From Polyangiaceae bacterium (lineage in GTDB: Bacteria > Myxococcota_A > Polyangia > Polyangiales > Polyangiaceae), in assembly GCA_013214025.1 (NCBI GenBank), contig JABSRN010000042.1, positions 62,001-126,000 on the forward strand: a DNA stretch of 64,000 bases, written 5' to 3'. The notes beneath the pieces were generated by a model. It saw only the letters and a list, made by a program, of their open reading frames with translations, was not told the DNA's origin and made no database searches. The number at the start of each line of letters is the position of its first letter. Positions within the stretch are counted from its first letter, which is position 1. Positions 10,019 to 44,673 of this stretch are shown piece after piece. The position numbers were made by a program, and so were the translations under genes.

Positions 10019-12076
10019 CTACTGAGCTGGGGAAGCCGTGGCGACGGAAGGTCGAGGCAAGGCGGACGCGTCGGGAACGCGCACCGGGGGAAGAGGACGC
10101 GCGGGCACGGGCACGCGCCTGGCGCTCTTGACTCGCCCCTTTTTAGTATACACCACGACCGGCTCCCCTTCGCTGAGCTGACGGCGCCTGGAATGGCGAT
10201 TAATGCGCTCCATCATACCGGAGCTCATGCCATAGCGACGCCCAATTTTCGTCAGCGTGTCTTTTGCCCGAGCGGAAACAGTGAGTCGCTCACGACCCCG
10301 CAGGCCTTCGAAGTGGTCAAAAAACGTTTTGGTGCCAGCTATCAACACCCGGGAGTCGGCTGGAGTGGAGTATCGGACACCGGAAAGGTCACGCCCTTTC
10401 GGCACGAAAATTTGTAGGACCATCTTCGCTTGCAGCCCGGCCGTCTTGTCCAGGGAGTTGTAGGTCAACACCTCCGCCTCAGACACACCAAACGCCCCCG
10501 CGATCTGCGGTAGGCTATCGCCCGATAGCACCTGATAAAATACCCGATCGCGGCCGGGATACTGAAAACGCTGGGCAGGCACCACAATGGGAGCCGAAGG
10601 CGCGGGTGCAACGGATCCCGACTTCGGCACCATCAGTATTGTACCCTTAGCCATTCGCTCCGAACTCCCCAGGCGGTTCAGCCGCCTCAGAGCTTTCGCG
10701 CTAGTGCGAGCTCGTCCTGCGATGCTCGCGATCGTGTCTCCAAAGCGCGCCGTGAGCACGTTGAACTTCTTGCGCTTCGAACGTTTCGCCAGTGCCCGGG
10801 TCGCTTGCTGACCGCTACCGCGAGGGACGTGTACACGCCAGCGCTTCTTACCCCGACTCCCCGACGACGGCGGCGTGCGTCCCGCTAGGTACTGAGGGTT
10901 CAGCGCGGCGATGGCTTCCGGCGCCACGCCCGACGCCCGAGCGACGTCAGCCAACGGCACACCTGGGTTTGCGTACACCACGTCGAAACTCACCGCTGCG
11001 TCTGGCTTGATCTTGTGCAAGCCAAACGCCTTTTTGTTGTTCATCACGACGGCGATGGCGAGAATCTTGGGAACATAGAGCGTGGTTTCCCAAGGGATCC
11101 CCGCTTCGAACCTACCCAATCGCCAGAAGTCGTTCGTGTTGAACTTGCGTACGGAGCGAGTGAGCCCGTTGTGACCCATATTGTACGCTGCCATCGCGAG
11201 GTCCCAGTTGCCGAAGCGCCGATGCAAATCGCTGAGGTAGCGAGCCGCAGCAACCGTCGCGCGTTGGGGATTGAGACGTTCGTCCACCCAGCGGTCCACT
11301 GTCAGTCCGTACATCCGCCCTGAGTCCGGCATGAACTGCCATAAACCTGCGGCGCCGGCCGGCGATCGGATATTCGGATTATGCCCGCTCTCGATCAAGC
11401 TCAGCCACACCAAATCCGATGGCAGTCCGTGCCTCGCGAACTCCGCCTTCAGCGCCGCCGTGTAGCGCCCGATTTTGCGTGCCCAAATACTCCCGATAGC
11501 GCGCCCACGCTTGGTGTCGCGATAGAAGCGCAGATACTTGATGACCCGTTCGTCCATCCGGACGGGGATGTTCGGCATGCTCAAGCTGCGCAGCCATTCC
11601 TCTTCCAACGCACGAGGCTCCGCCGCCTGATTTCCAGCCTGGGGAACCGCCTTAGGACCGCCGGGGAAATCCCACGACCAACCCGGACGCACGCCTTCGA
11701 TGGCCTTGGGAAACAGTACCCGCTCAGCGTCTTCCAGCGCCTGGAGTTCAGGATCTGAAACTTTTCCGGCCAGCTCCTCGTCCGTAGCGCCTTGGGCGAC
11801 TAGCCGGCGAGCTGCCCCATCTGGAGATCCGGCTGTCATGCCCTCCGGGAGAGTCGACTTCGGAGCGTTGGGCGCTCGCCCCACGCGGTGCGACTTTGCG
11901 GCTGTTGAGCTCCCCGCCGGGGCCGGCGATGCGGGCAGTAGGCGACGCTCTGCTGAAACAGCCCGCGAGCCAGAACCCGGTCCTGGCCCGACCTCGGCAG
12001 TCGCCAATTGGGGAACCAGCCCGACGATCAATGCGGTCAACCCCGCACAAAAAACACGACTTCTGCGTGAGCGCAT
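10019..12076 (-). CDS. MltD-type lytic murein transglycosylase with LysM repeats
   Basis: Periplasmic or outer-membrane enzyme that cleaves peptidoglycan glycan strands. From ATG 12074-12076 the product has 685 residues, starting with a basic, hydrophobic signal peptide that ends near ATA. The SLT catalytic domain spans about 200-340, with catalytic Glu229 in LSLIESGHNP, then GAAGLWQFMP and the AAYNMG motif. Three LysM-like modules that bind N-acetylglucosamine strands follow (about 420-480, 505-555 and 580-640). The tail is Arg/Pro-rich. The mature N-terminus is low-complexity, and no lipobox is seen. A TTG 12 codons upstream would also fit but would place residues before the signal peptide. 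The gene follows cheB by 64 nt and may be read with the chemotaxis operon. Confidence 0.9.
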   Translation of the reverse strand: MRSRRSRVFCAGLTALIVGLVPQLATAEVGPGPGSGSRAVSAERRLLPASPAPAGSSTAAKSHRVGRAPNAPKSTLPEGMTAGSPDGAARRLVAQGATDEELAGKVSDPELQALEDAERVLFPKAIEGVRPGWSWDFPGGPKAVPQAGNQAAEPRALEEEWLRSLSMPNIPVRMDERVIKYLRFYRDTKRGRAIGSIWARKIGRYTAALKAEFARHGLPSDLVWLSLIESGHNPNIRSPAGAAGLWQFMPDSGRMYGLTVDRWVDERLNPQRATVAAARYLSDLHRRFGNWDLAMAAYNMGHNGLTRSVRKFNTNDFWRLGRFEAGIPWETTLYVPKILAIAVVMNNKKAFGLHKIKPDAAVSFDVVYANPGVPLADVARASGVAPEAIAALNPQYLAGRTPPSSGSRGKKRWRVHVPRGSGQQATRALAKRSKRKKFNVLTARFGDTIASIAGRARTSAKALRRLNRLGSSERMAKGTILMVPKSGSVAPAPSAPIVVPAQRFQYPGRDRVFYQVLSGDSLPQIAGAFGVSEAEVLTYNSLDKTAGLQAKMVLQIFVPKGRDLSGVRYSTPADSRVLIAGTKTFFDHFEGLRGRERLTVSARAKDTLTKIGRRYGMSSGMMERINRHSRRRQLSEGEPVVVYTKKGRVKSARRVPVPARPLPPVRVPDASALPRPSVATASPAQ

Positions 12077-12140: not shown

Positions 12141-13202
12141 CTATAATTTGCTAACTAACTGCGCGATTCGCTCGGCAATCTTCGGCAGCGGCACGCTCTC
12201 ACTCACGACCCCGGCACGCACCGCCGCCCTCGGCATCCCATAGACGACGGCCGTTTCTTCGCTTTCAGCGATTACGCTGCCCCCCGCCGCGAGTATGGCC
12301 CTCGCGCCCTCAACTCCGTCATCCCCCATTCCGGTCAGAATGATCCCGATAGCCCGAGCGCCGAAAACCTCCGCCGCGCTCGTCAACAGGCGGTCCCCGC
12401 TGGGGATGTATCGGTCCGTACGCAGCGGTGCCGACAAGCGCAGGCGGTGCGGTGGACTGGAGTGGTACGCCAGTTCCATGCACTGACGACCGGGGCAAAT
12501 GAACACTCGGTGGGCCTGAACGTGGTCGGCACCCGCAGCTTCAGTGACGTGAAGCTCGCAGTAGCGGTTCAGCCGCTCCGCGAAGGTAGCCGTAAACTTT
12601 TCTGGCATGTGCTGGGCAACGACCACCGAGTAAGAGGCGTTCGGCTTGAGCTCCGCCAAGATCTCTGTGAGCGCTGTGGGACCACCGGTCGATGAGGCGA
12701 TTGCCACGATAACGCGAGGTGCGCTCGCGGGTTTCTCGTAAGGCCTCGGCGCCAAGCTCCGGTGGGGCGCCGAGCGGGAAAGCAGCGCTGTACTGCGCAT
12801 ACTCCGAACCAACATCACCTTCTGGATCAGCAAGTCCTTGATTTTGAACAAGGATTCGGTGGAGCTATCTGGCTTGGCGACGAAATCGATGGCACCGAGC
12901 TCCAAGGCGCGAAACACGTTCTCTTTCTGCGAATAGCTGGAGACGATGATGACCGGTGTAGGCCGGGCCGCCATCAGCATGCGCAGAAAGCTAAAGCCGT
13001 CCACCTTCGGCATTTCGAGATCAGCGGTCACTGCATCGGGGCGGAGCTGCGCGACCAACTTCAATGCCTCACTGCCGTCAGAAGCCGTGCCCACTACTTC
13101 GATTTCCGGATGCCCCCGGAGCAACTGGCTGATGGCGTGCTGATTCTGACGGGAATCATCCACCACAAGTACCCGTAATTTAGGCTGCCCGCCGGCGCTC
13201 AT
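12141..13202 (-). CDS. cheB: Chemotaxis protein-glutamate methylesterase CheB
   Basis: Removes methyl groups from, or deamidates, chemoreceptor glutamates, and is activated by phosphorylation. The 353-residue product has a receiver domain with the acidic pair VDD (15-16) and phospho-acceptor Asp61 in TADLEMPKVDG, and a linker of about 60 residues. The methylesterase domain follows, with the catalytic Ser in IASSTGGPTAL (about 170), His in VVAQHMPEKFT and Asp in LTGMGDDG. All catalytic residues are present. The ATG start has AGGGGG six nt upstream. It is the last chemotaxis gene of the operon, 58 nt after cheR. No receptor gene is in the window, so its target lies elsewhere. Confidence 0.96.
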   Translation of the reverse strand: MSAGGQPKLRVLVVDDSRQNQHAISQLLRGHPEIEVVGTASDGSEALKLVAQLRPDAVTADLEMPKVDGFSFLRMLMAARPTPVIIVSSYSQKENVFRALELGAIDFVAKPDSSTESLFKIKDLLIQKVMLVRSMRSTALLSRSAPHRSLAPRPYEKPASAPRVIVAIASSTGGPTALTEILAELKPNASYSVVVAQHMPEKFTATFAERLNRYCELHVTEAAGADHVQAHRVFICPGRQCMELAYHSSPPHRLRLSAPLRTDRYIPSGDRLLTSAAEVFGARAIGIILTGMGDDGVEGARAILAAGGSVIAESEETAVVYGMPRAAVRAGVVSESVPLPKIAERIAQLVSKL

Positions 13203-13260
13203 TCGAGCCCCCTATCTGTGATTCCGACTCGTGCCACGACGGTCCGCTCGTTCCCCACCC

Positions 13261-14133
13261 TCATAGGGTTTGCCGGGCTTCCGTGCGCATTGGCTTCATA
13301 TACACCAAGTCTTCTTTCAAATGCAGCAGTTCGAAGGCCGTGGACACGTTCAATAGAGACTCGGAGTGACCGAGAAGTAATATGCCGCCGGACACCAGGC
13401 GGCGATAGAGGTTATCGATCACCCGGCGGCGCGAATTTTCGTCGAAGTAGATCAGAACATTTCGACAAAACACAACGTCCACAGGACCGACGATCGCTAG
13501 GTTGGCGCGATCCATCAGGTTGAGGTGGCCGAACTGACAGTATTGCCGAAGAAACTCCGCTACCTGAAAACCCTCTGGGTGAGGAGCGAAATATTTGTCG
13601 CGCACGGTCGGCTCGATCGTCCGAAACGACCCGCCCGCCCTGTATACGCCACGACGCGCTGCCGCGATTCGACTCTTGGTGATGTCGCTCCCGATGATTC
13701 GAACATCCCAGTCGTCGAACAAGCCGCTCCGATGCACCATCATTGCAATGGTGTAGGCTTCCTCGCCCGTGGAGCAACCCGCGCTCCACAACACGAGATT
13801 TTTGGTGCTGGCATTTTTCTCCGCAAGCGCCGGAAGCAGTTCCTTCTCAAAACTTCGGAGCTGATATTCTTGACGGAAAAAATAAGTCTCGCTGGTGGTC
13901 AGGACTTCGATGGCCTCATCAAATTCCCTGGCCGCGTCGCTACTGAACCGAAGATGTTTGTAGTACTCCGCAAAGCTGTCGAGCTCAAGTGCCGCCAATC
14001 GCTCACCGAGCCGTCTATCGAAGAGGTACATCGACGAGTTGTCGAAGTGCAGACCACAGCGGTCGTAAACAAAATCTCGCAGTAGGCGAAACTCGATGGG
14101 CTGTAGCGGCGGGTAGCGTTCAAATACGCTCAC
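13261..14133 (-). CDS. cheR: Chemotaxis protein methyltransferase CheR
   Basis: Transfers methyl from S-adenosylmethionine to receptor glutamates. From GTG 14131-14133 the protein has 290 residues: an N-terminal helical domain (VFERYPPLQPIEFRLLRDFV) and a Rossmann methyltransferase domain with LWSAGCSTGEEAYTIAMM, SDITKSRI and VVFCRNVLIYFD, all CheR hallmarks. The GTG overlaps the TGA of the upstream HEAT-repeat gene as GTGA, and GGAGAGG lies 6-10 nt upstream, which fixes this start. A longer reading frame exists upstream but is only the shadow of the HEAT gene. The beta-subdomain that binds receptor pentapeptides cannot be assessed by eye. Confidence 0.95.
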   Translation of the reverse strand: MSVFERYPPLQPIEFRLLRDFVYDRCGLHFDNSSMYLFDRRLGERLAALELDSFAEYYKHLRFSSDAAREFDEAIEVLTTSETYFFRQEYQLRSFEKELLPALAEKNASTKNLVLWSAGCSTGEEAYTIAMMVHRSGLFDDWDVRIIGSDITKSRIAAARRGVYRAGGSFRTIEPTVRDKYFAPHPEGFQVAEFLRQYCQFGHLNLMDRANLAIVGPVDVVFCRNVLIYFDENSRRRVIDNLYRRLVSGGILLLGHSESLLNVSTAFELLHLKEDLVYMKPMRTEARQTL

Positions 14134-16226
14134 GAGCCCTCTCCAGGGTTGCTCGGCGGCATGCTCGGATGGTTGCGCCCTTCTATCTCCGCTAGCGCCG
14201 AGGACAGCGCCTCCCGGACTAAGGCCTCCTTTTCGGTGGACAAATGCCCGCGCAGCAAACGCTTCGCATCGTCGCCTCCATGCCGGGCGAGCAGATCTGC
14301 GGCGAGCCGCCGCACGTCCCATGCCGCGTGGTCAAGACACGCACCGAGGTGCGTCGGCACCCGCGGGTCCTCGTAGGCAACCAGTACTTGGAGTGTCGCC
14401 TTCACCACCTCGGGCTCTTGGTGGCTCAATCCGATGATCACGCCGGCCAGCTTCCCGTCCAGCGCCATGGCTTCGACTGCCGCCACCGCGCGTGCGGGCC
14501 TGGCTTCTCGTGCCAGCCCTTCTAGAAGCTCACGCGCCCGTAGAGCCTTCACCGTACCCAATGCGTGAATGGCTGACGTAACGAGAGCCTCGTCAGTGCC
14601 TGAGGAGACCAGGTCGAACAGGTATTCTAGGCCCAACGACTCCCCGCCAGCTCCCTTCATCTGGCCGAGGGTTCGGATCGCCGCCAACTGGACCTCGCGA
14701 GCCTCATCTGTCAAAGCGAAAGCAACCGCCCGAGTGGCCGCAGCTCCGGGCATGGTTCGGAGGGCCTTCAGCGCGGCCCGCCGACAATGAGTTCGCTCAT
14801 TGGACACCGTGGCGGTCAGAAACTCTACATCTCGAGGGGCCACCCCATGGCCAGACACGGTCAATGCCGCAATCACGACCGCTGCGAAGGCCGCATCGGG
14901 GCCATCGCAGCTAGCTTGGTTCGCCATCTTCCGAGCCGCCACTGGATAGCGAGTCGCGCAAGCCGACACCGCCACCTCCGCGGAATGCCTCACCTGTGCC
15001 GCCACGTCTCCACGGAGCCACGGCACGCTCTGTTCCAAGCTTTCCTCGTCTCCCACCAACGCCACGGCAGCCAACCAAGATCGCGCCATGCCGGGTTCGC
15101 GGTCTGCAATCGCTTCGTTGATAGCAATCAGAGCTTCCGCGCGGTTGCTATCATCGGCGATCGCACCCAGCAATCGAACACAGGCCGAGCGGATCTCCAC
15201 GCCCCCTTCTCTAGCGTTGGCCACAAGCGTCCCCACTGCCATAGCTCCAATCTGGTGAAGCGCCGCCTCTGCGTCTTCCGCCAACTCGACGGAGCCGAGC
15301 GCTTCCACTGCGACTTTTGCGTCTTCCCCCCCTCCGAGTACGCCGAGAGCGCGGAGCGCGGCTCTTCGTTCCTCGAGCGGCGCGTCAGAGTCTTGACTGA
15401 GGCCGCGTAGGAGCTCACGGCACTCTTCGGCAACGGATACAAACGCCGCCTTCGCGCTGTCGGCGCACTGCTCGCCGACGGCTAGGTAGTCACCCAGCGC
15501 GCTCAGTGCGCTTGCCCTCTTGGACCGGTGCCAAAACTCCACAGCGTGCGCAAGGTGTTTGCCCACGGCGAGGTCGCCGCCCCGAGCCGCCGCCACCATG
15601 GCCGCCGTATCGAGCATGGGATCTGAGAGGAACGACTCCAATCGGCTGTCCCAAGGGATACGAAGCCCCAACAGGTTGATCGAATTGAGCGTCACCAAGC
15701 GCAAAAACGCGTCTTCATTGCCCAACGCCTTAACGAGGATACTCGCTGCTTCGCCGGTGCTGACCACCCCCACCGTGGAGAGAGATTCAAGAGCGGCCGC
15801 GACCACGTTCTGGTCGTCGTCCTGTGCCATGTCGCCGAGAATGCGCACAGCGGCGCGTTCGCCCGTGCGAGCGAGCGCTTCCGCGGCGAGCTTGCGCCCG
15901 TCGGAATCTAGTTGATCGCGAACTTTATCAATCGCCTTGACCGCATCGATGCCGTAGCTGCCCAGTGACTCGACCGCGGCGTTCCTCAACCCTACGTTGG
16001 ACCCTGAGACCAACGTGTCCACCAGGGCAACGAGCAACTCGGTATTCGGCGCCAGCTGGCTGGCTACCTGAGACGCCTCTTTTCGTACGCGCCAATCTTC
16101 GTCAGCGAGGGCCTTCATCACCCGCTCAACCAAGTCGACAGCACCGGTAGTGCGAAAGTCCGCAACCTCCCGCCGGCGAAGCTCAGGGTCTGTCTCTATC
16201 CCGTCTTCTTGCCTGCCGTCCGTCAA
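14130..16226 (-). CDS. HEAT-repeat protein of the chemotaxis operon
   Basis: A 698-residue protein made almost wholly of HEAT/PBS-lyase-like repeats of about 30-35 residues (for example VRKEASQVASQLAPNTELL, LRNAAVESLGSYG, VQLAAIRTLGQMKGAGG, VRRLAADLLARHGGDDA). Such repeats form a superhelical protein-binding scaffold. It has no signal peptide or enzymatic motif. Its ATG overlaps the stop of the upstream cheW (ATGA) and its stop overlaps the cheR start (GTGA), so it is translated as part of the chemotaxis set. HEAT-like proteins occur in some Myxococcus chemosensory clusters, which supports a role as partner or adaptor for CheA/CheW or CheR. That role is inference. Confidence 0.85.
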   Translation of the reverse strand: MTDGRQEDGIETDPELRRREVADFRTTGAVDLVERVMKALADEDWRVRKEASQVASQLAPNTELLVALVDTLVSGSNVGLRNAAVESLGSYGIDAVKAIDKVRDQLDSDGRKLAAEALARTGERAAVRILGDMAQDDDQNVVAAALESLSTVGVVSTGEAASILVKALGNEDAFLRLVTLNSINLLGLRIPWDSRLESFLSDPMLDTAAMVAAARGGDLAVGKHLAHAVEFWHRSKRASALSALGDYLAVGEQCADSAKAAFVSVAEECRELLRGLSQDSDAPLEERRAALRALGVLGGGEDAKVAVEALGSVELAEDAEAALHQIGAMAVGTLVANAREGGVEIRSACVRLLGAIADDSNRAEALIAINEAIADREPGMARSWLAAVALVGDEESLEQSVPWLRGDVAAQVRHSAEVAVSACATRYPVAARKMANQASCDGPDAAFAAVVIAALTVSGHGVAPRDVEFLTATVSNERTHCRRAALKALRTMPGAAATRAVAFALTDEAREVQLAAIRTLGQMKGAGGESLGLEYLFDLVSSGTDEALVTSAIHALGTVKALRARELLEGLAREARPARAVAAVEAMALDGKLAGVIIGLSHQEPEVVKATLQVLVAYEDPRVPTHLGACLDHAAWDVRRLAADLLARHGGDDAKRLLRGHLSTEKEALVREALSSALAEIEGRNHPSMPPSNPGEGS

Positions 16227-16738
16227 TATTCCCCCTTCCAGTTCGGCTTCTGGCCACCGTCGACAGCGGACACGACACCATCAAAAGCAGATGTGTCCAG
16301 CACAAACACCATCGAATCTTCGTAGCTGGTAACCCCAAGAACCACGCCTTCCATCGCTCCGTCAACGTTGGGCGCAGAGCGAATCGGTTGGCCAGCGGTG
16401 CCAAACACATCAGTGATGGAATCAACCGCCAAACCAAGGTCGCCACCCGGAGTACGAATCAGTATCCACTTGGTTCGAGATGAGGGCTCGCCTTCCGGCG
16501 CCCCGAAACGCTTTCGTAAATCGATCACGGGGATCACATCGCCGCGGTGGTCGGCCACCCCTGCCACAGCAGCAGGGAGGTGCGGAAGCTGGGCTAACGG
16601 CACGGGAACAATTATTTCGCGGACGGTCTCGATGCGCACCGCGTAGTGCACATCCGCCACAATAAATCCCACGAGGCTACGATCGGGGTCATGCCGTAAA
16701 CGGCTCCGTCGTTTGGGGGTGCCAATGGCCCGTGTCAT
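16223..16738 (-). CDS. cheW: CheW adaptor (first of two)
   Basis: Couples receptors to the CheA kinase. The 171-residue product has a CheW fold (about 18-150) with FIVADVHYAVRIETVREII, the conserved VAGVADHRGDVIPVIDLRKRF and ILIRTPGGDLGLAVDSITDV. It has a basic N-terminal stretch of about 17 residues (RRSRLRHDPDR) and a polar tail. Its ATG overlaps the stop of the upstream cheW as ATGA, and its own TGA overlaps the ATG of the HEAT gene. It differs clearly from the neighbouring CheW, so the two probably have separate partners or positions in the array. Confidence 0.92.
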   Translation of the reverse strand: MTRAIGTPKRRSRLRHDPDRSLVGFIVADVHYAVRIETVREIIVPVPLAQLPHLPAAVAGVADHRGDVIPVIDLRKRFGAPEGEPSSRTKWILIRTPGGDLGLAVDSITDVFGTAGQPIRSAPNVDGAMEGVVLGVTSYEDSMVFVLDTSAFDGVVSAVDGGQKPNWKGEY

Positions 16739-17181
16739 GACGTGATGCTCCTCATGTCCAGCAGCACGATGAGTTCGCCGTCCGGACGACCGATGCCCGC
16801 AACGTGATCCGATAGATCGGCGCCAAGCACGGCGTTGGCCCCCTCAATTTCTGACTCGAGCAGCCGGGAAACTTGAAATACCTCGTCGACATAGAGACCC
16901 ATGAGTTCCGCGCCCTCAGTGCGGGTGAGCAGAATACGTGAGTTGCGAGACGCAGGCGCTTCTGCCAAGCGCAACACCCGACGAAGATCCACAACCGTCA
17001 CCAACATCCCTCGTACGCTACAAATGCCAATGGTCGTCGCATTGGCGCGCGGCACTTCAGTCAACGCCGGCGGGTTCACAATCTCTTGAACGCGGATCAA
17101 CTCCACCCCGTAGGTATCCTCTGCCAGGCGAAATACCAGATACTCGCGTACCGGTTCTTCGTTGCGTTCCCGCAACGACAT
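16735..17181 (-). CDS. cheW: CheW adaptor (second of two)
   Basis: A 148-residue CheW-fold protein with YLVFRLAEDTYGVELIRVQE, ICSVRGMLVTVVDLRRVL and ELMGLYVDEVFQV. The start at ATG 17179-17181 is fixed by a strong AAGGAGG four nt upstream. Nine extra codons in the open frame before it would hide this ribosome-binding site. It follows cheA by 23 nt and overlaps the next cheW by 4 nt. Two adaptors with one kinase suggest two receptor types or a mixed array. No receptor is encoded nearby. Confidence 0.93.
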   Translation of the reverse strand: MSLRERNEEPVREYLVFRLAEDTYGVELIRVQEIVNPPALTEVPRANATTIGICSVRGMLVTVVDLRRVLRLAEAPASRNSRILLTRTEGAELMGLYVDEVFQVSRLLESEIEGANAVLGADLSDHVAGIGRPDGELIVLLDMRSITS

Positions 17182-17204
17182 GGGGCCTCCTTCGCAGCCT
17201 TCGG

Positions 17205-19355
17205 TCACGACGGCCTCGCGCGCATGGTTGTCACCGCATCATGGCCCGCTAGAGCCTCCTCGATGATCGCTCCCGCATCCAGAACCAGGGCGACCCGCTG
17301 ATCTCCCAGCTCGCTGGCGCCCGCAAATCCGCGAACGTGTCGCAGGGTAGGGCCCAAACCTTTCACTACGATATCTTGCTGTCCCAACAGGTCGTCGACA
17401 ACCAGACCCAAGCGCCGCGCACCCATCGTCGCCACGACGACCGACTTGTATCGAGGCCCCTCGTGCGGCAGCGCCGGCTCTTTGAGCTCAAAAAACCGGT
17501 CCAAACGGCACAGCACCAATGTCGACCCACGCAGAGTCATCACCTCTCTCCCATCCACCGTGCGCACTAGTTTCTCGTCGAACATCAGCGCTTCGGCCAC
17601 GCTGCTCAGGGGCAGAGCGAAAGTGCGCCCCAGCAAGCGAATCAATAGGGCGTTCACAATCGCCAGGGTGATCGGCAGCGTGATCACCAATTGGGTACCA
17701 ATGCTGTACTCACTTTGGATATCGATAATGCCGCCCAGCTTGTTGATATTCGTTTTCACGATATCCATGCCGACACCGCGCCCGCTATATTCGCCAGCCT
17801 GTTCTCTCGTGCTGAGGCCGGGCAAAAAAATCAATCCCAGAGCTTCCGCGCGACTCAACATTTCGACTTCGTTTGCCGCCAGGTGTCCGGCGCGAACCGC
17901 TCGCTCAACAACGGCCGCCTCGTTGACCCCCTGCCCGTCATCCTCAATCTGGATGACTACATGGTTTCCCTTTTGGTAAGCGTTCAACGCGATGGTGCCA
18001 GCTACCGGCTTGCCAATCGCCTTGCGTTGCTCCGCACTCTCGATGCCGTGATCGATAGAGTTGCGGATAATGTGCATCAGTGGGTCGCCCAGTTCTTCGA
18101 CGAGCAACTTGTCTATCTCCGTCTGGGCGCCCGTGACCACCAGACGAATTTCCTTACCCATGTCCCGACTGATTTGCCGAACCACCCTTGAAAGACGATC
18201 GAAGAGCTGGCCGAGCGTGACCATGCGAACCTCGAGAATTCCGTCCTGAAGCTCCGAGAGTCGTCGCTCAAAACTTCGTTGGATACGGGACACCTCTCGC
18301 CGTAGCTCCCGATCCTGAGTGTTCCGAAGCCGGTCTCCGAGGCGATTGAGAGCGCTCTTCACAATGGCGAGCTCGCCCACGACATTCATCAGTCCATCCA
18401 GCTTCCGGATGTCCACTCGCACCGTGTCGGCCACCGAACGCAACATGGGCACGGCGGGCACGTTGAGCTCCGCATTCACCGGCGGCTCGGTCCGAGGGTT
18501 GTCCCCCACGGCCACGGTGCTGCCGGCCGTCTCCTCTCCCACCGCAGCGAAAGAGGACGTCCCAAGCGCATGTGTCGACAGCGACGATATCCCTGTGCTC
18601 GCAGAAGCCTGGGAAATTCGTGGAATGGCTGTAATCGTAAGATCCGTTCCTCCCAGCGCTGCCTCTAGTTGCTCAAGACTCGAAGAAGAGGCCATGAGCA
18701 GATCGAGTTCAATAGCATCCGCGCTGGGGGCATCGCCCGTGGGCAAGTACGTGATGATCTCCCCATGGGGTTTAGCCTTCGCCTTTACGTCCTCCAGTGC
18801 CTTATCGATGGTCGCCAAGTCGAAGCGGACCCGAATGCGAAACAGCGCCTGACCGGCATCCATATTCGTCTTGAGCCGGTGCTCTTCGTACTCCGTGAGC
18901 ACCGCTAGTAGCCCCGGCTCCAAATCGAAGGCCATCTGATCGGGCGCTTCCTCAACGGCTGACTCGCCGAGGGTACCCAAAACCCCCATCAGCTTTTCGA
19001 TTTGGGGTTGGTTCAGGCCTTCTTCGCCACGCTCAGCCGCTAGCATCGCGCCGTAGCAGTCGACCGCCGCAAACAACACATCGAGAACGTCTGGAGACGC
19101 CTTCAATCGGCCCAGTCTGAGCCGGTCGAGAACGTCTTCAAGGGTGTGGGACACTCGGCCCATTTCGGTCGCGTTGAAGAGACCCGCCAAGCTTTTTAGC
19201 GTGTGCACTGCCCGGAAAGCTTCGTTGATAATCGAAGGGTCCGCTGCTCCGATTCCCTGCTCATCCAGCGCGAGCAAGTTTCGAGAGAACATCTCGATGA
19301 GCTCTTGCGCCTCCGAAAAGAATTCTTCCCGCGCTTTATCGATACCGTCAGTCAC
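17205..19355 (-). CDS. cheA: Chemotaxis histidine kinase CheA
   Basis: Autophosphorylates and passes phosphate to response regulators. From GTG 19353-19355 it has 716 residues. The Hpt domain carries His51 in AVHTLKSLAG. A helical and low-complexity linker of about 200 residues follows, with no clear P2 domain. Then come the dimerisation helices (VRVDIRKLDGLMNVVGELAI), the ATPase N-box HIIRNSIDHGIE, G1 EDDGQGVN and G2 GRGVGMDIV, and a C-terminal CheW-like regulatory domain. The GTG overlaps the cheY stop as GTGA, matching the coupling style of this operon. An upstream in-frame start would add 12 residues inside cheY. Confidence 0.94.
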   Translation of the reverse strand: MTDGIDKAREEFFSEAQELIEMFSRNLLALDEQGIGAADPSIINEAFRAVHTLKSLAGLFNATEMGRVSHTLEDVLDRLRLGRLKASPDVLDVLFAAVDCYGAMLAAERGEEGLNQPQIEKLMGVLGTLGESAVEEAPDQMAFDLEPGLLAVLTEYEEHRLKTNMDAGQALFRIRVRFDLATIDKALEDVKAKAKPHGEIITYLPTGDAPSADAIELDLLMASSSSLEQLEAALGGTDLTITAIPRISQASASTGISSLSTHALGTSSFAAVGEETAGSTVAVGDNPRTEPPVNAELNVPAVPMLRSVADTVRVDIRKLDGLMNVVGELAIVKSALNRLGDRLRNTQDRELRREVSRIQRSFERRLSELQDGILEVRMVTLGQLFDRLSRVVRQISRDMGKEIRLVVTGAQTEIDKLLVEELGDPLMHIIRNSIDHGIESAEQRKAIGKPVAGTIALNAYQKGNHVVIQIEDDGQGVNEAAVVERAVRAGHLAANEVEMLSRAEALGLIFLPGLSTREQAGEYSGRGVGMDIVKTNINKLGGIIDIQSEYSIGTQLVITLPITLAIVNALLIRLLGRTFALPLSSVAEALMFDEKLVRTVDGREVMTLRGSTLVLCRLDRFFELKEPALPHEGPRYKSVVVATMGARRLGLVVDDLLGQQDIVVKGLGPTLRHVRGFAGASELGDQRVALVLDAGAIIEEALAGHDAVTTMRARPS

Positions 19356-19741
19356 CCGTCGCGTCCCAGCTGGCGAATGGCTTCGGCGCACAAGGCATCG
19401 GCAGTAAACGGCTTTTCGATGTAAACGTTCGCACCCAAACGGAGGCCACGGTCCTTGTCGCGTTGGGCCTTCTGCGTCGAGATCAGGATGATGGGAGTGT
19501 TCTTGTGCTGGTCGCTCTTTCGCATGAACTGCACCAGCTCGAGACCGTTCACGTCCGGCATGTTGATGTCCGTGATGACGAGCTCGTATGGGCCGCGGGG
19601 CAGAAGCCTGAGCGCTTCAAAACCGCCCGCTGCTTCAACGACTTCGCCGTCGTCACCCAGCACCGCCGGATTGGCCACCAAGGCGCTCCGCACGAAGGCG
19701 CGCATGCTCATAGAATCATCGACCAGAAGGATTTTAGCCAT
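19352..19741 (-). CDS. CheY-like single-domain response regulator
   Basis: A 129-residue receiver domain. The acidic pair is VDD (8-9), the phospho-acceptor is Asp58 in VITDINMPDVNG, the Thr/Ser switch is in ILISTQ and the conserved Lys is in EKPFTADAL. There is no output domain, so it acts through protein contacts, probably as the CheA substrate. I chose ATG 19739-19741 because the receiver fold begins at once (MAKILLVDDS). A GTG five codons earlier is possible. It heads the chemotaxis operon unless the small ORF just upstream is translated. Its stop overlaps the cheA start. Confidence 0.93.
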   Translation of the reverse strand: MAKILLVDDSMSMRAFVRSALVANPAVLGDDGEVVEAAGGFEALRLLPRGPYELVITDINMPDVNGLELVQFMRKSDQHKNTPIILISTQKAQRDKDRGLRLGANVYIEKPFTADALCAEAIRQLGRDG

Positions 19742-41670: not shown

Positions 41671-44600
41671 ATGCCGGCGCTCAGCTCACTGCTAATTAAG
41701 CGGAAAGTCGCCTCCACCAGCGACGTCCAAGAAGCGCTCGCACGGCAGGTGCTCTACGGCGGCGATCTCGTCACCAACTTGCTTGAGCTGTGCGCGCTCG
41801 ACGAACCCGAGCTCACTCAATCTCTCGCGGAGAGTTTTCAGCTACCACCGGCGCCGATCGGCGCGCTGCCCACCAGCGCCCACGCGGTGCTCGGTCTCGT
41901 CCCGGGAGACGTTGCGCTCCGCTACGGCATCTACCCGATGGGACGAGAAGGCGATTGTCTAATGGTCGCGGTCGCCGAACCCATGCCGATGGCGGTCGAA
42001 GACGACGTCAGCTCAGCCCTCGGTGTGCGCATTGAGCAGCATGTCACCCCGTTGCCGCGAGTGCGGCAAGCGATCGCCAGAGACTACGGTCTCCCCTTGG
42101 ATTCACGTTGCCAAGCCGTGCTCATTCGACTGCAAGGCACGCAACCCCAATCCATTCAGCCTGAGCCAGCGCCAGCCAAATCAGTGTTGGGTGCGCCAGA
42201 TCTCGTGTCGTTGCCCCAGCCCCCGACCGTGCCCCCCATCGCACTACCTGGAGCGACCGGCACCGGCGCGACCGCCGGAGGTGCACCGATGGTGCGTCGG
42301 GACACCCGCCCGGGTACCGGCGCTCCACCGCCGCCATCGTCCCCTCCCGAACCGATCCGACAAAGCGGCGATACCGAACGGCCTCCTGCCATGCGCGTTC
42401 GGCCGCCCAGCGTCGCTCCGCCCGCCATCCCTATTTCGCCCGCACCAATTCCAAAAACCGCCACGGGCGGCATGCCCACGTCGACACAGCCAGTGGCCGT
42501 GCCCGGTGGCACCCAACGTCCAACGGCGATACACGCCACGGCGACACAAGCCACTACCGACAGCCCACAACCCGTGACGACAGCCCTCCGCCGCTCCGCT
42601 ATTCCGGCAGCCCGTCAGGCGAAAACTCGTCCCAAACCTCGGGGTCCCTACACGCCGGCACGCGCCGAAAAAGATCTGCTGGAAGCGAAGACGCGCGACG
42701 ACGTGCTCTCCGCCTTCCTTCACTTCGCCTCGCAATATTTTGAGTACACCGCGATCTTCGCCGTGCACGGCGATCTCGCCGAAGGCCGTATCGCTGATGG
42801 GCCGGGCGCGCCCAGCTCCCTGGTGGCCGGCATCGGCGTCCCGCTCGATTTGCCCAGTTCCATCTCTCGGGTTATCGAGCGCGGTAACTGGCTCCTCACC
42901 CGTCTCGAGCCCGACGGACTCGACGCTGATCTAGCGAATAATCTCCAGCGCCCTATCGGCAAACAAATCCTGTTGCTGCCCACGCTCGTAAAGACGCGGT
43001 GCGTGCTTGTTCTCTACGGCGATCACGGTCGCGACAGCGTGAATTTGGAAGCTGTGGGCGACGTGTTGGCCTTCGCTCCTCTCGTGGCATCCGCTCTTGA
43101 GCACGTCATCATGCTGCGGAAGAAAGCCGTTCGCTCGGCGCTGCGGCCATTGCCCGCCCGCGGCTCGAACTTTGAGCCACGCCCGCCACCGGAAACCCGC
43201 GCTCAAACGCTCGCCAGGGCGCTTGAAATATCACCCCCGAGCACCCGCCGAGCAGCCGCCCCCACGGGGAGCACTCACCCCCCATCCTCCCCTGCCGAGC
43301 ATCCCTCGGAGCCCGCAACTGCCGGCACCGCCGCGTCCGAAAATCCGTCCGCATCCACCCCGTCTTCACCAGCGCCGAATGCCATCGAGCCGTCCGCACC
43401 AGTGCTGGAGGCCGCCAAGCCCGAGACGGAGCCTGATGCTGCCCCCAAGGTGCACGAGTCGATGGCACAGCCCAAGGTTGAGATCGCTCCGGCGATCCAG
43501 CCGAACGACGAGCTGACCACTCGGGCCCCGGAGGTCGTCCAGGCAAAACTCAAAGAGATGCAAGTGCCGACCGGCGAACCGCCGGTCGCCGAGAGCTCCG
43601 ACAAAACCGACGAGCAGGAGTCTGAAGAAGAAGCCCCGCCCTTGAGCGAGTGGGACATCCCCGACGATCCCATGCCCTCTCCGTCGTCAATGGCTACGTC
43701 CAGCGCCGCGCCGCGCCAGCCCGAAACCTTGCCCGACCTGCGACACGACGACCCGCCGGTGCAGCGCAACCGACACAGTTCTGGTGAACATCGATTGCCG
43801 TCGGTGATTGTCGACCAGAGCTCGGACATGGCGGCTCTCGTATCCAAATTGCTCGACGGCGATTCAAACGCCATGCAGACCCTGCGAGAACTCGGCGGAT
43901 CCGCCGCCGGCGCCTTGGTCGCAGAATTTCCCGGTCCGATTCGACACGATTCGTCTATCCCGGGCCCGATCGCCGCATCCGAAGCCGGACCCATCTTGAG
44001 TTTGCTTTCGGAGATCGGCGAAGAGGCGGTGCCATTTCTTATCGTGCGAACGAACGATAAGAGTCCGTCCGTCCGCGCCTGGAGCACCCGCTTGCTCGGG
44101 GAGATACCGACGATCGAAGGCGCCCAAGCCATCGTACGCCGCTCGCTAGATTCTGACCCCACTGTGCGAAAGTCCGTAGTGGATGCCGCGAGACTGCTCG
44201 ATCCCCAGAGCGAAGCGCGAGCCATTATCCGCGACGGCTTGTGCCAAGCCATGGTGGACACTGGCCAAGACATGTACGCTCGCATCGCAGCTCTGGAATG
44301 TTTGGTGGAGCTACGCGAAAAACGAGCGATCCCGAAGTTGATTCAACTTCTCGACGACGTAGCCGAAAGCATCGCTCAATCCGCGCACTGGGGTTTACTC
44401 ACCCTGGCTCGGCAAAATTTCAAACAGCGGTCCTCCGAGTGGCAAAAGTGGTGGGCGAGCAACCAGAATCGCGATCGCATTGAGTGGCTGATCGACGCTC
44501 TCGGGCACGACGCGCTAGAGGTTCGCAGCGCCGCCGGCGACGAACTGAAACACATGACAAAAGAATACTTCGGCTACTACAGCGACCTTCCCAAGAAGGA

Positions 44601-44673
44601 GCGGGCCAAGGCGCAATCGCGTTACCGCGAGTGGTGGGCCCGCGTGGGACAGGCACGATTCGGTACCAATTAG
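41671..44673 (+). CDS. MshEN - GAF-like - HEAT modular protein, 1000 residues
   Basis: A large cytosolic protein with no signal peptide. Residues 1-140 resemble the MshEN/GspE-N domain (LLIKRKVASTSDVQEALARQ, PIGALPTSAHAVLGLVP, YPMGREGDCLMVAVAEP), a fold that can bind c-di-GMP. A Pro/Thr/Ala-rich linker (about 150-325) follows, then a GAF-like sensor (about 330-485, KTRDDVLSAFLHFASQYFEY) and a second acidic Pro/Ser-rich linker (about 490-700). The C-terminus carries HEAT-like repeats (about 710-990, SPSVRAWSTRLLGEIP, RIAALECLVELREKRAIPKL), ending in a Trp-rich EWQKWWASN and EWWARVG pair. There is no ATPase or output enzyme, so it is probably a signal-sensing scaffold. It lies between mgtE and a tiny membrane protein with no obvious operon. 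The function is unknown. Confidence 0.75.
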   Translation: MPALSSLLIKRKVASTSDVQEALARQVLYGGDLVTNLLELCALDEPELTQSLAESFQLPPAPIGALPTSAHAVLGLVPGDVALRYGIYPMGREGDCLMVAVAEPMPMAVEDDVSSALGVRIEQHVTPLPRVRQAIARDYGLPLDSRCQAVLIRLQGTQPQSIQPEPAPAKSVLGAPDLVSLPQPPTVPPIALPGATGTGATAGGAPMVRRDTRPGTGAPPPPSSPPEPIRQSGDTERPPAMRVRPPSVAPPAIPISPAPIPKTATGGMPTSTQPVAVPGGTQRPTAIHATATQATTDSPQPVTTALRRSAIPAARQAKTRPKPRGPYTPARAEKDLLEAKTRDDVLSAFLHFASQYFEYTAIFAVHGDLAEGRIADGPGAPSSLVAGIGVPLDLPSSISRVIERGNWLLTRLEPDGLDADLANNLQRPIGKQILLLPTLVKTRCVLVLYGDHGRDSVNLEAVGDVLAFAPLVASALEHVIMLRKKAVRSALRPLPARGSNFEPRPPPETRAQTLARALEISPPSTRRAAAPTGSTHPPSSPAEHPSEPATAGTAASENPSASTPSSPAPNAIEPSAPVLEAAKPETEPDAAPKVHESMAQPKVEIAPAIQPNDELTTRAPEVVQAKLKEMQVPTGEPPVAESSDKTDEQESEEEAPPLSEWDIPDDPMPSPSSMATSSAAPRQPETLPDLRHDDPPVQRNRHSSGEHRLPSVIVDQSSDMAALVSKLLDGDSNAMQTLRELGGSAAGALVAEFPGPIRHDSSIPGPIAASEAGPILSLLSEIGEEAVPFLIVRTNDKSPSVRAWSTRLLGEIPTIEGAQAIVRRSLDSDPTVRKSVVDAARLLDPQSEARAIIRDGLCQAMVDTGQDMYARIAALECLVELREKRAIPKLIQLLDDVAESIAQSAHWGLLTLARQNFKQRSSEWQKWWASNQNRDRIEWLIDALGHDALEVRSAAGDELKHMTKEYFGYYSDLPKKERAKAQSRYREWWARVGQARFGTN

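Follow-up and report, generated by a model that had tools for sequence, protein, structure and literature searches.

What does a protein built of HEAT repeats do in the middle of a chemosensory operon? The question is raised by a 64,000 nucleotide stretch of contig JABSRN010000042.1 (positions 62,001 to 126,000; this whole stretch is termed the window) from a Polyangiaceae-like myxobacterium, where cheY1, cheA, cheW1, cheW2, a HEAT-repeat gene, cheR and cheB follow one another in this transcription order on the minus strand from 19741 to 12141. Genes and domains in this segment were assigned from a list of open reading frames (ORFs), by reading of the sequence and with Pfam. The HEAT protein is probably a specific partner or target of CheY1, on the output side of a single pathway of the Che7/Che8 type whose methyl-accepting chemotaxis protein (MCP) is encoded in trans. 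This reading is preferred because the HEAT gene is kept and lost with cheY1 while cheA and cheW persist, and because there is a precedent in Cpc7, a HEAT protein reported to interact with CheY7. The operon type is already known from myxobacteria, and the new element is that cheY1 and the HEAT gene are kept together and lost together.

Conservation of the HEAT gene and its absence together with cheY1

Of 116 relatives, 79 gave a HEAT match, and a profile search of 377 genomes of the phylum returned matches in 165 at E ≤ 1e-20; part of the latter are unrelated HEAT proteins encoded outside che clusters. Genomes with a match include metagenome-assembled genomes of Polyangiaceae, Polyangium, Minicystis rosea, Sorangium cellulosum, Labilithrix and Sandaracinaceae. 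After removal of duplicates and of loci broken by contig ends, 85 complete HEAT-bearing Myxococcota loci remained, and cheY1, cheA, two cheW genes, cheR and cheB accompany the HEAT gene in a common order in all of them (85/85), so the arrangement is not a product of chance. The first-pass annotation had made the place of the HEAT gene in related che clusters a test of its own proposal, a scaffold bridging CheA arrays to an output, and the gene is not absent from this position but occupies the same slot in relatives. It is a real and conserved component of the chemosensory system. In more distant Myxococcota families (L183-L188, L170), cheW2 and the HEAT gene are separated by an MCP gene, in a position like that of mcp7, and an operon-borne receptor may therefore be ancestral and have been lost from the operon later.

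Fifteen complete loci with an orthologous cheA lack the HEAT gene, and 14 of them also lack the first cheY gene, cheY1. In these 14, cheA and cheW are retained, cheB usually and cheR often. In eight Polyangiaceae loci (L223-L230), cheA-cheW1-cheW2 is kept and both the HEAT gene and cheY1 are missing; six of the eight (L223, L224, L225, L227, L228 and L230) retain cheR and cheB, and there cheR lies directly next to cheW2. Both genes are also missing from L198, L200, L202, L204, L205 and L209, where the orthologous cheA is present. Searches of the 14 loci using tblastn with sampled orthologues detected no HEAT remnant and no cheY1 remnant, the best CheY-like matches being the CheB receiver or a later cheY2, and eight control loci were positive for both genes. 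In L204 (6878-7525) and L205 (6934-7671), both on the minus strand, the HEAT slot is filled by a gene whose product, 215-245 aa long, has a receiver-like N-terminal part and is possibly a replacement output.

Changes in HEAT and cheY1 were mapped onto a CheA tree of 101 loci, giving nine changes for HEAT and eight for cheY1, and seven supported independent pairs. Within these seven, cheY1 changes in the same direction as HEAT in six and in the opposite direction in none (p = 0.031), while cheR changes with HEAT in 4-5 and cheB in three. As cheY1 and the HEAT gene are separated by cheA and the two cheW genes, one simple deletion cannot remove the pair.

That the joint absence reflects a general decay of redundant operons, with no special link between the two genes, is improbable. 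Decay would suit L198 and L200, where the CheA branches are very long and cheR has also been lost, but cheA, cheW, cheR and cheB are intact in four separate HEAT-less clades (L224/L225; L223/L227/L230; L228; L204/L205), and in the first three of these cheW2 and cheR are direct neighbours, 48-99 bp apart. The operons of L198 and L200 are strongly reduced and their MCP match is weak or diverged, which suggests that these two systems are decaying or have changed in function.

The co-loss fits equally well with a HEAT protein that controls the phosphorylation of CheY1, as a phosphatase platform or a sink for phospho-CheY1, and is not its effector; Pfam detected no CheZ, CheC or CheX among the genes of the operon. 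There is nevertheless little to commend this role, as Pfam shows HEAT repeats alone with no catalytic signature, and the precedent in Myxococcus xanthus is described, in the sources given below, as an interaction with CheY7 through which development is regulated.

Several observations weigh against a specific link to CheY1. The sample is small, with seven supported independent pairs, and L207, which has also lost cheW, cheR and cheB, is a HEAT-less locus with cheY1, the only one. The negative result for cheY1 covers the loci only, no genome-wide search for displaced cheY1 orthologues having been made. cheR also tends to vanish with HEAT, in the proportion given above, and partial correlations of distance matrices with HEAT (CheB 0.37, CheR 0.34, CheY1 0.23, CheW about 0) fail to single out CheY1 and slightly favour CheR and CheB. 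In one relative, G073, a single open frame (L076:8362-10500, minus strand) is a fusion of the N-terminal HEAT half with CheR.

The behaviour of cheR, the correlations with CheR and CheB, the fusion, and the translational coupling of the HEAT gene to cheW2 and cheR would all fit an array scaffold or adaptor, a protein that links CheA/CheW or CheR with the membrane or the array, which is a role close to that proposed in the first-pass annotation. This role is unlikely. At least eight Polyangiaceae genomes keep cheA and both cheW genes without HEAT, and the receptor gene is mostly retained in them, as are cheR and cheB, so a scaffold needed by CheA arrays finds no support. The gene missing along with HEAT in these genomes is cheY1, which favours an output role with CheY over one with CheA, CheW or CheR. 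The full set of cheA, both cheW genes, cheR and cheB persists without HEAT in L223, L224, L225, L227, L228, L230, L204 and L205, and the near-zero partial correlation applies to both CheW1 and CheW2. Persistence of the arrays makes a CheA/CheW scaffold unlikely, and speaks less firmly against a role with CheR. The fusion was rejected as proof of contact, being a single case in which half of HEAT has been lost, with no second HEAT-CheR fusion among 56 genomes of the order to which G073 belongs.

The HEAT solenoid and a proposed route from receptor to output

An AlphaFold2 model of the HEAT protein, built from a 68-row alignment, is a continuous all-helical solenoid of 41 helices with a mean predicted local distance difference test score (pLDDT) of 94.2. 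Conservation alternates along the solenoid, and is highest in the inner helices of repeats one to five and lowest in the middle. The conserved inner-helix residues are W45-R46-V47-R48, G79-L80-R81-N82, R111-K112 and N140, with W45, R46, R48 and R81 invariant. Orthologues of about half length (L195, L196 and others) retain the N-terminal half, as does the G073 fusion. The N-terminal inner groove is the candidate docking site for CheY. In CheY1, the phosphorylation residues Asp, Ser and Lys are present, and the catalytic D, S and K are invariant over 80 orthologues. Matches of the model to PDB structures were confined to generic HEAT/ARM solenoids (PP2A-A, importins and designed alphaReps) and are uninformative as to function. 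Membership of the PBS-lyase, phycobilin lyase or NblB family, whose proteins likewise contain HEAT repeats, was rejected, as the weak NblB match scores 27.4 bits against a cut-off of 300.

The source assembly (5.77 Mb, 97% complete) contains three CheW domains, all inside this operon, and the genome therefore encodes one CheA and two CheW proteins. The operon is the sole chemosensory pathway of this organism. Its earlier description as receptor-less is correct for the operon, since Pfam and hidden Markov model searches detected no MCP there or among the nearby genes tested, but not for the cell, which has one intact MCP of 577 aa (contig 149, L033:5652-7385) unlinked to che genes. This protein consists of a long cytoplasmic coiled coil and, at its N-terminus, a short hydrophobic hairpin. 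It is more conserved in relatives than CheA, with 58-83% identity over the aligned part compared with mostly 50-63% for CheA, and its best matches in relatives fall outside che contigs. Six genomes (G005, G016, G023, G071, G081 and G086) have neither an orthologous CheA nor a close match to this MCP; the exception is G021 (88% complete), in which CheA is present and the MCP match is absent. As the genome holds a single intact MCP, this protein is likely the receptor of the pathway, encoded in trans. Its gene adjoins one for an NtrY-like histidine kinase, a pairing also seen near the MCP gene in 4 of 9 relatives examined. A frame-broken MCP fragment on contig 141 (L034, 4679-6720) lies beside two genes, one for an orphan CheY and the other for a weak CheX-like protein, and the three are the remains of another chemosensory set.

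No match to FliG_C, the flagellar switch domain, was found in the genome, and four control genomes were positive. The output is therefore probably non-flagellar, in agreement with the first-pass annotation. Five PilT-family ATPases score over the cut-off in the genome, and a link between the pathway and type IV pili is possible. MshEN is a cyclic di-GMP receiver of pilus ATPases, and a second HEAT protein of the window (41671-44673, plus strand; 1000 aa) combines an N-terminal MshEN domain with C-terminal HEAT repeats.

In the proposed route, the MCP from contig 149 would feed an array of CheA, CheW1 and CheW2, which CheR and CheB would adapt, and CheA would phosphorylate CheY1. CheY1, probably in the phosphorylated form, would then dock on the N-terminal HEAT repeats, at their conserved inner face, and the remainder of the solenoid would pass the signal to a non-flagellar machine. 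Physical binding of HEAT by CheY1 and its dependence on phosphorylation are presumed here, with co-loss of the HEAT gene and cheY1 as the genetic proxy. With a single CheA, a single intact MCP and a lack of FliG, this organism would be a minimal system for testing the CheY1-HEAT hypothesis.

Operon arrangement and neighbouring genes

Features of the operon and the adjacent downstream gene are listed in Table 1. The gene order and coupling reported in the first-pass annotation were confirmed from the ORFs and Pfam, with the same order in relatives. The first six genes, cheY1 to cheR, are joined by successive 4-nt overlaps, GTGA at cheY1/cheA and cheA/cheW1, ATGA at cheW1/cheW2, TTGA at cheW2/HEAT and GTGA at HEAT/cheR. 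The overlaps had been given as ATGA or GTGA, which is correct for four junctions; the exception, cheW2/HEAT, arises from the TTG start codon of the HEAT gene, which has a purine-rich AAGGGGG immediately upstream. These overlaps suggest that the dose of HEAT is tied to those of CheW and CheR. An alternative cheA start at 19391 (728-aa ORF) would overlap cheY1 further. The cheR and cheB genes are 58 nt apart, and a promoter and terminator scan gave no signal above shuffled sequences.

Table 1. Location and predicted products of the chemosensory genes and of the gene following cheB (window coordinates).
Feature	Position	Strand	Description
cheY1	19352..19741	-	129 aa, single receiver domain; Pfam Response_reg 1.7e-22
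cheA	17205..19355	-	716 aa from GTG 19355; Hpt - dimerisation - HATPase - CheW, without receiver (Pfam, sequence)
cheW1	16735..17208	-	Pfam CheW 5.1e-29
cheW2	16223..16738	-	Pfam CheW 7.5e-30; ATGA overlap with cheW1
HEAT-repeat gene	14130..16226	-	698 aa, TTG start inside TTGA overlap; Pfam HEAT_2 6.7e-30
N-terminal HEAT repeats	15660..16180	-	About residues 15-190; most conserved part (per-helix conservation, alignments)
cheR	13261..14133	-	290 aa, without TPR; Pfam CheR 2.5e-52, CheR_N 1.5e-13; GTGA overlap with HEAT
cheB	12141..13202	-	Receiver and methylesterase; Pfam; NCBIfam PRK00742 over cut-off
MltD-like secreted lytic transglycosylase	10019..12076	-	SLT and LysM (Pfam); likely start ATG 12076

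The transglycosylase gene and then glmU lie downstream of cheB on the same strand. The transglycosylase had been taken to hint at a cell-wall output. It was rejected as a general output, since an MltD-like gene is found directly 3′ of cheB in only 11 of the 85 complete HEAT-bearing loci, and this weakens the proposal; the neighbourhood is read as local synteny, and the enzyme is probably not part of the chemosensory system.

Comparison with Che7, Che8 and an archaeal system

The order cheY-cheA-cheW(-cheW)-X-cheR-cheB, known for the Che7 and Che8 clusters of M. xanthus from locus tags (PMC3945109), is found here, as are a CheA with Hpt, dimerisation, kinase and CheW domains but no receiver, a CheR without TPR and a CheB with a receiver. 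The operon is of the M. xanthus Che7/Che8 type, orthology being assigned by gene order and architecture, not by tree. No member of TIGR02269, a Myxococcus paralogous family, scored over the cut-off among the 377 phylum genomes.

Che8 (MXAN_4759-4751) is arranged cheY8b-cheA8-cheW8b-cheW8a-[two unlisted genes]-cheR8-cheB8-cheY8a and has no MCP (PMC3945109); its function is not identified according to PMC9040617. The present operon shares with it the gene order, the lack of an MCP gene, two cheW genes, a CheA without receiver and a CheR of the same length as CheR8 (290 aa), but has no second cheY after cheB in the position of cheY8a. The slot corresponding to HEAT holds the two unlisted genes in Che8, a comparison made by locus tags only.

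Che7 (MXAN_6965-6959) is arranged cheY7-cheA7-cheW7-mcp7-[MXAN_6961]-cheR7-cheB7 (PMC3945109) and, according to PMC9040617, is associated with a HEAT-repeat protein. This protein is Cpc7, which PMC11514114 reports to interact with CheY7, and that interaction is described there and in PMC9040617 as regulating development. From its position between mcp7 and cheR7, MXAN_6961 would be Cpc7. In both systems the cheY-cheA-cheW-X-cheR-cheB order is found and a HEAT protein belongs to the system, the one here being composed only of HEAT repeats and encoded in the che cluster; Che7 has one cheW gene and an MCP gene inside the operon, whereas here there are two cheW genes and no MCP gene. Cpc7 is described with 27 helices (PMC11514114), versus the 41 predicted here.

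Few CheY targets are known outside the flagellar motor, Cpc7 among them, and a phylum-wide operon in which HEAT follows cheY1 and not the array genes turns an isolated observation in M. xanthus into a general, testable hypothesis. More tentatively, a CheY-HEAT pair could be the standard output module of a non-flagellar chemosensory system across much of the Myxococcota, with phosphorylated CheY switching the long HEAT solenoid in the place of the FliM of flagellar chemotaxis. The module could also have been lost as a whole on several occasions, after which the same array would serve a different output.

In Halobacterium salinarum, the HEAT_PBS protein OE2401F from the che region binds Che proteins, and without it the Che system is uncoupled from the motor (PMC2666748). 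OE2401F acts alongside the archaeal flagellum and CheF (DUF439), which is specific to archaea, and it bound CheD and CheF, not CheY directly. The parallel with the HEAT protein studied here is one of function only, that of a HEAT protein encoded in a che region and needed for output.

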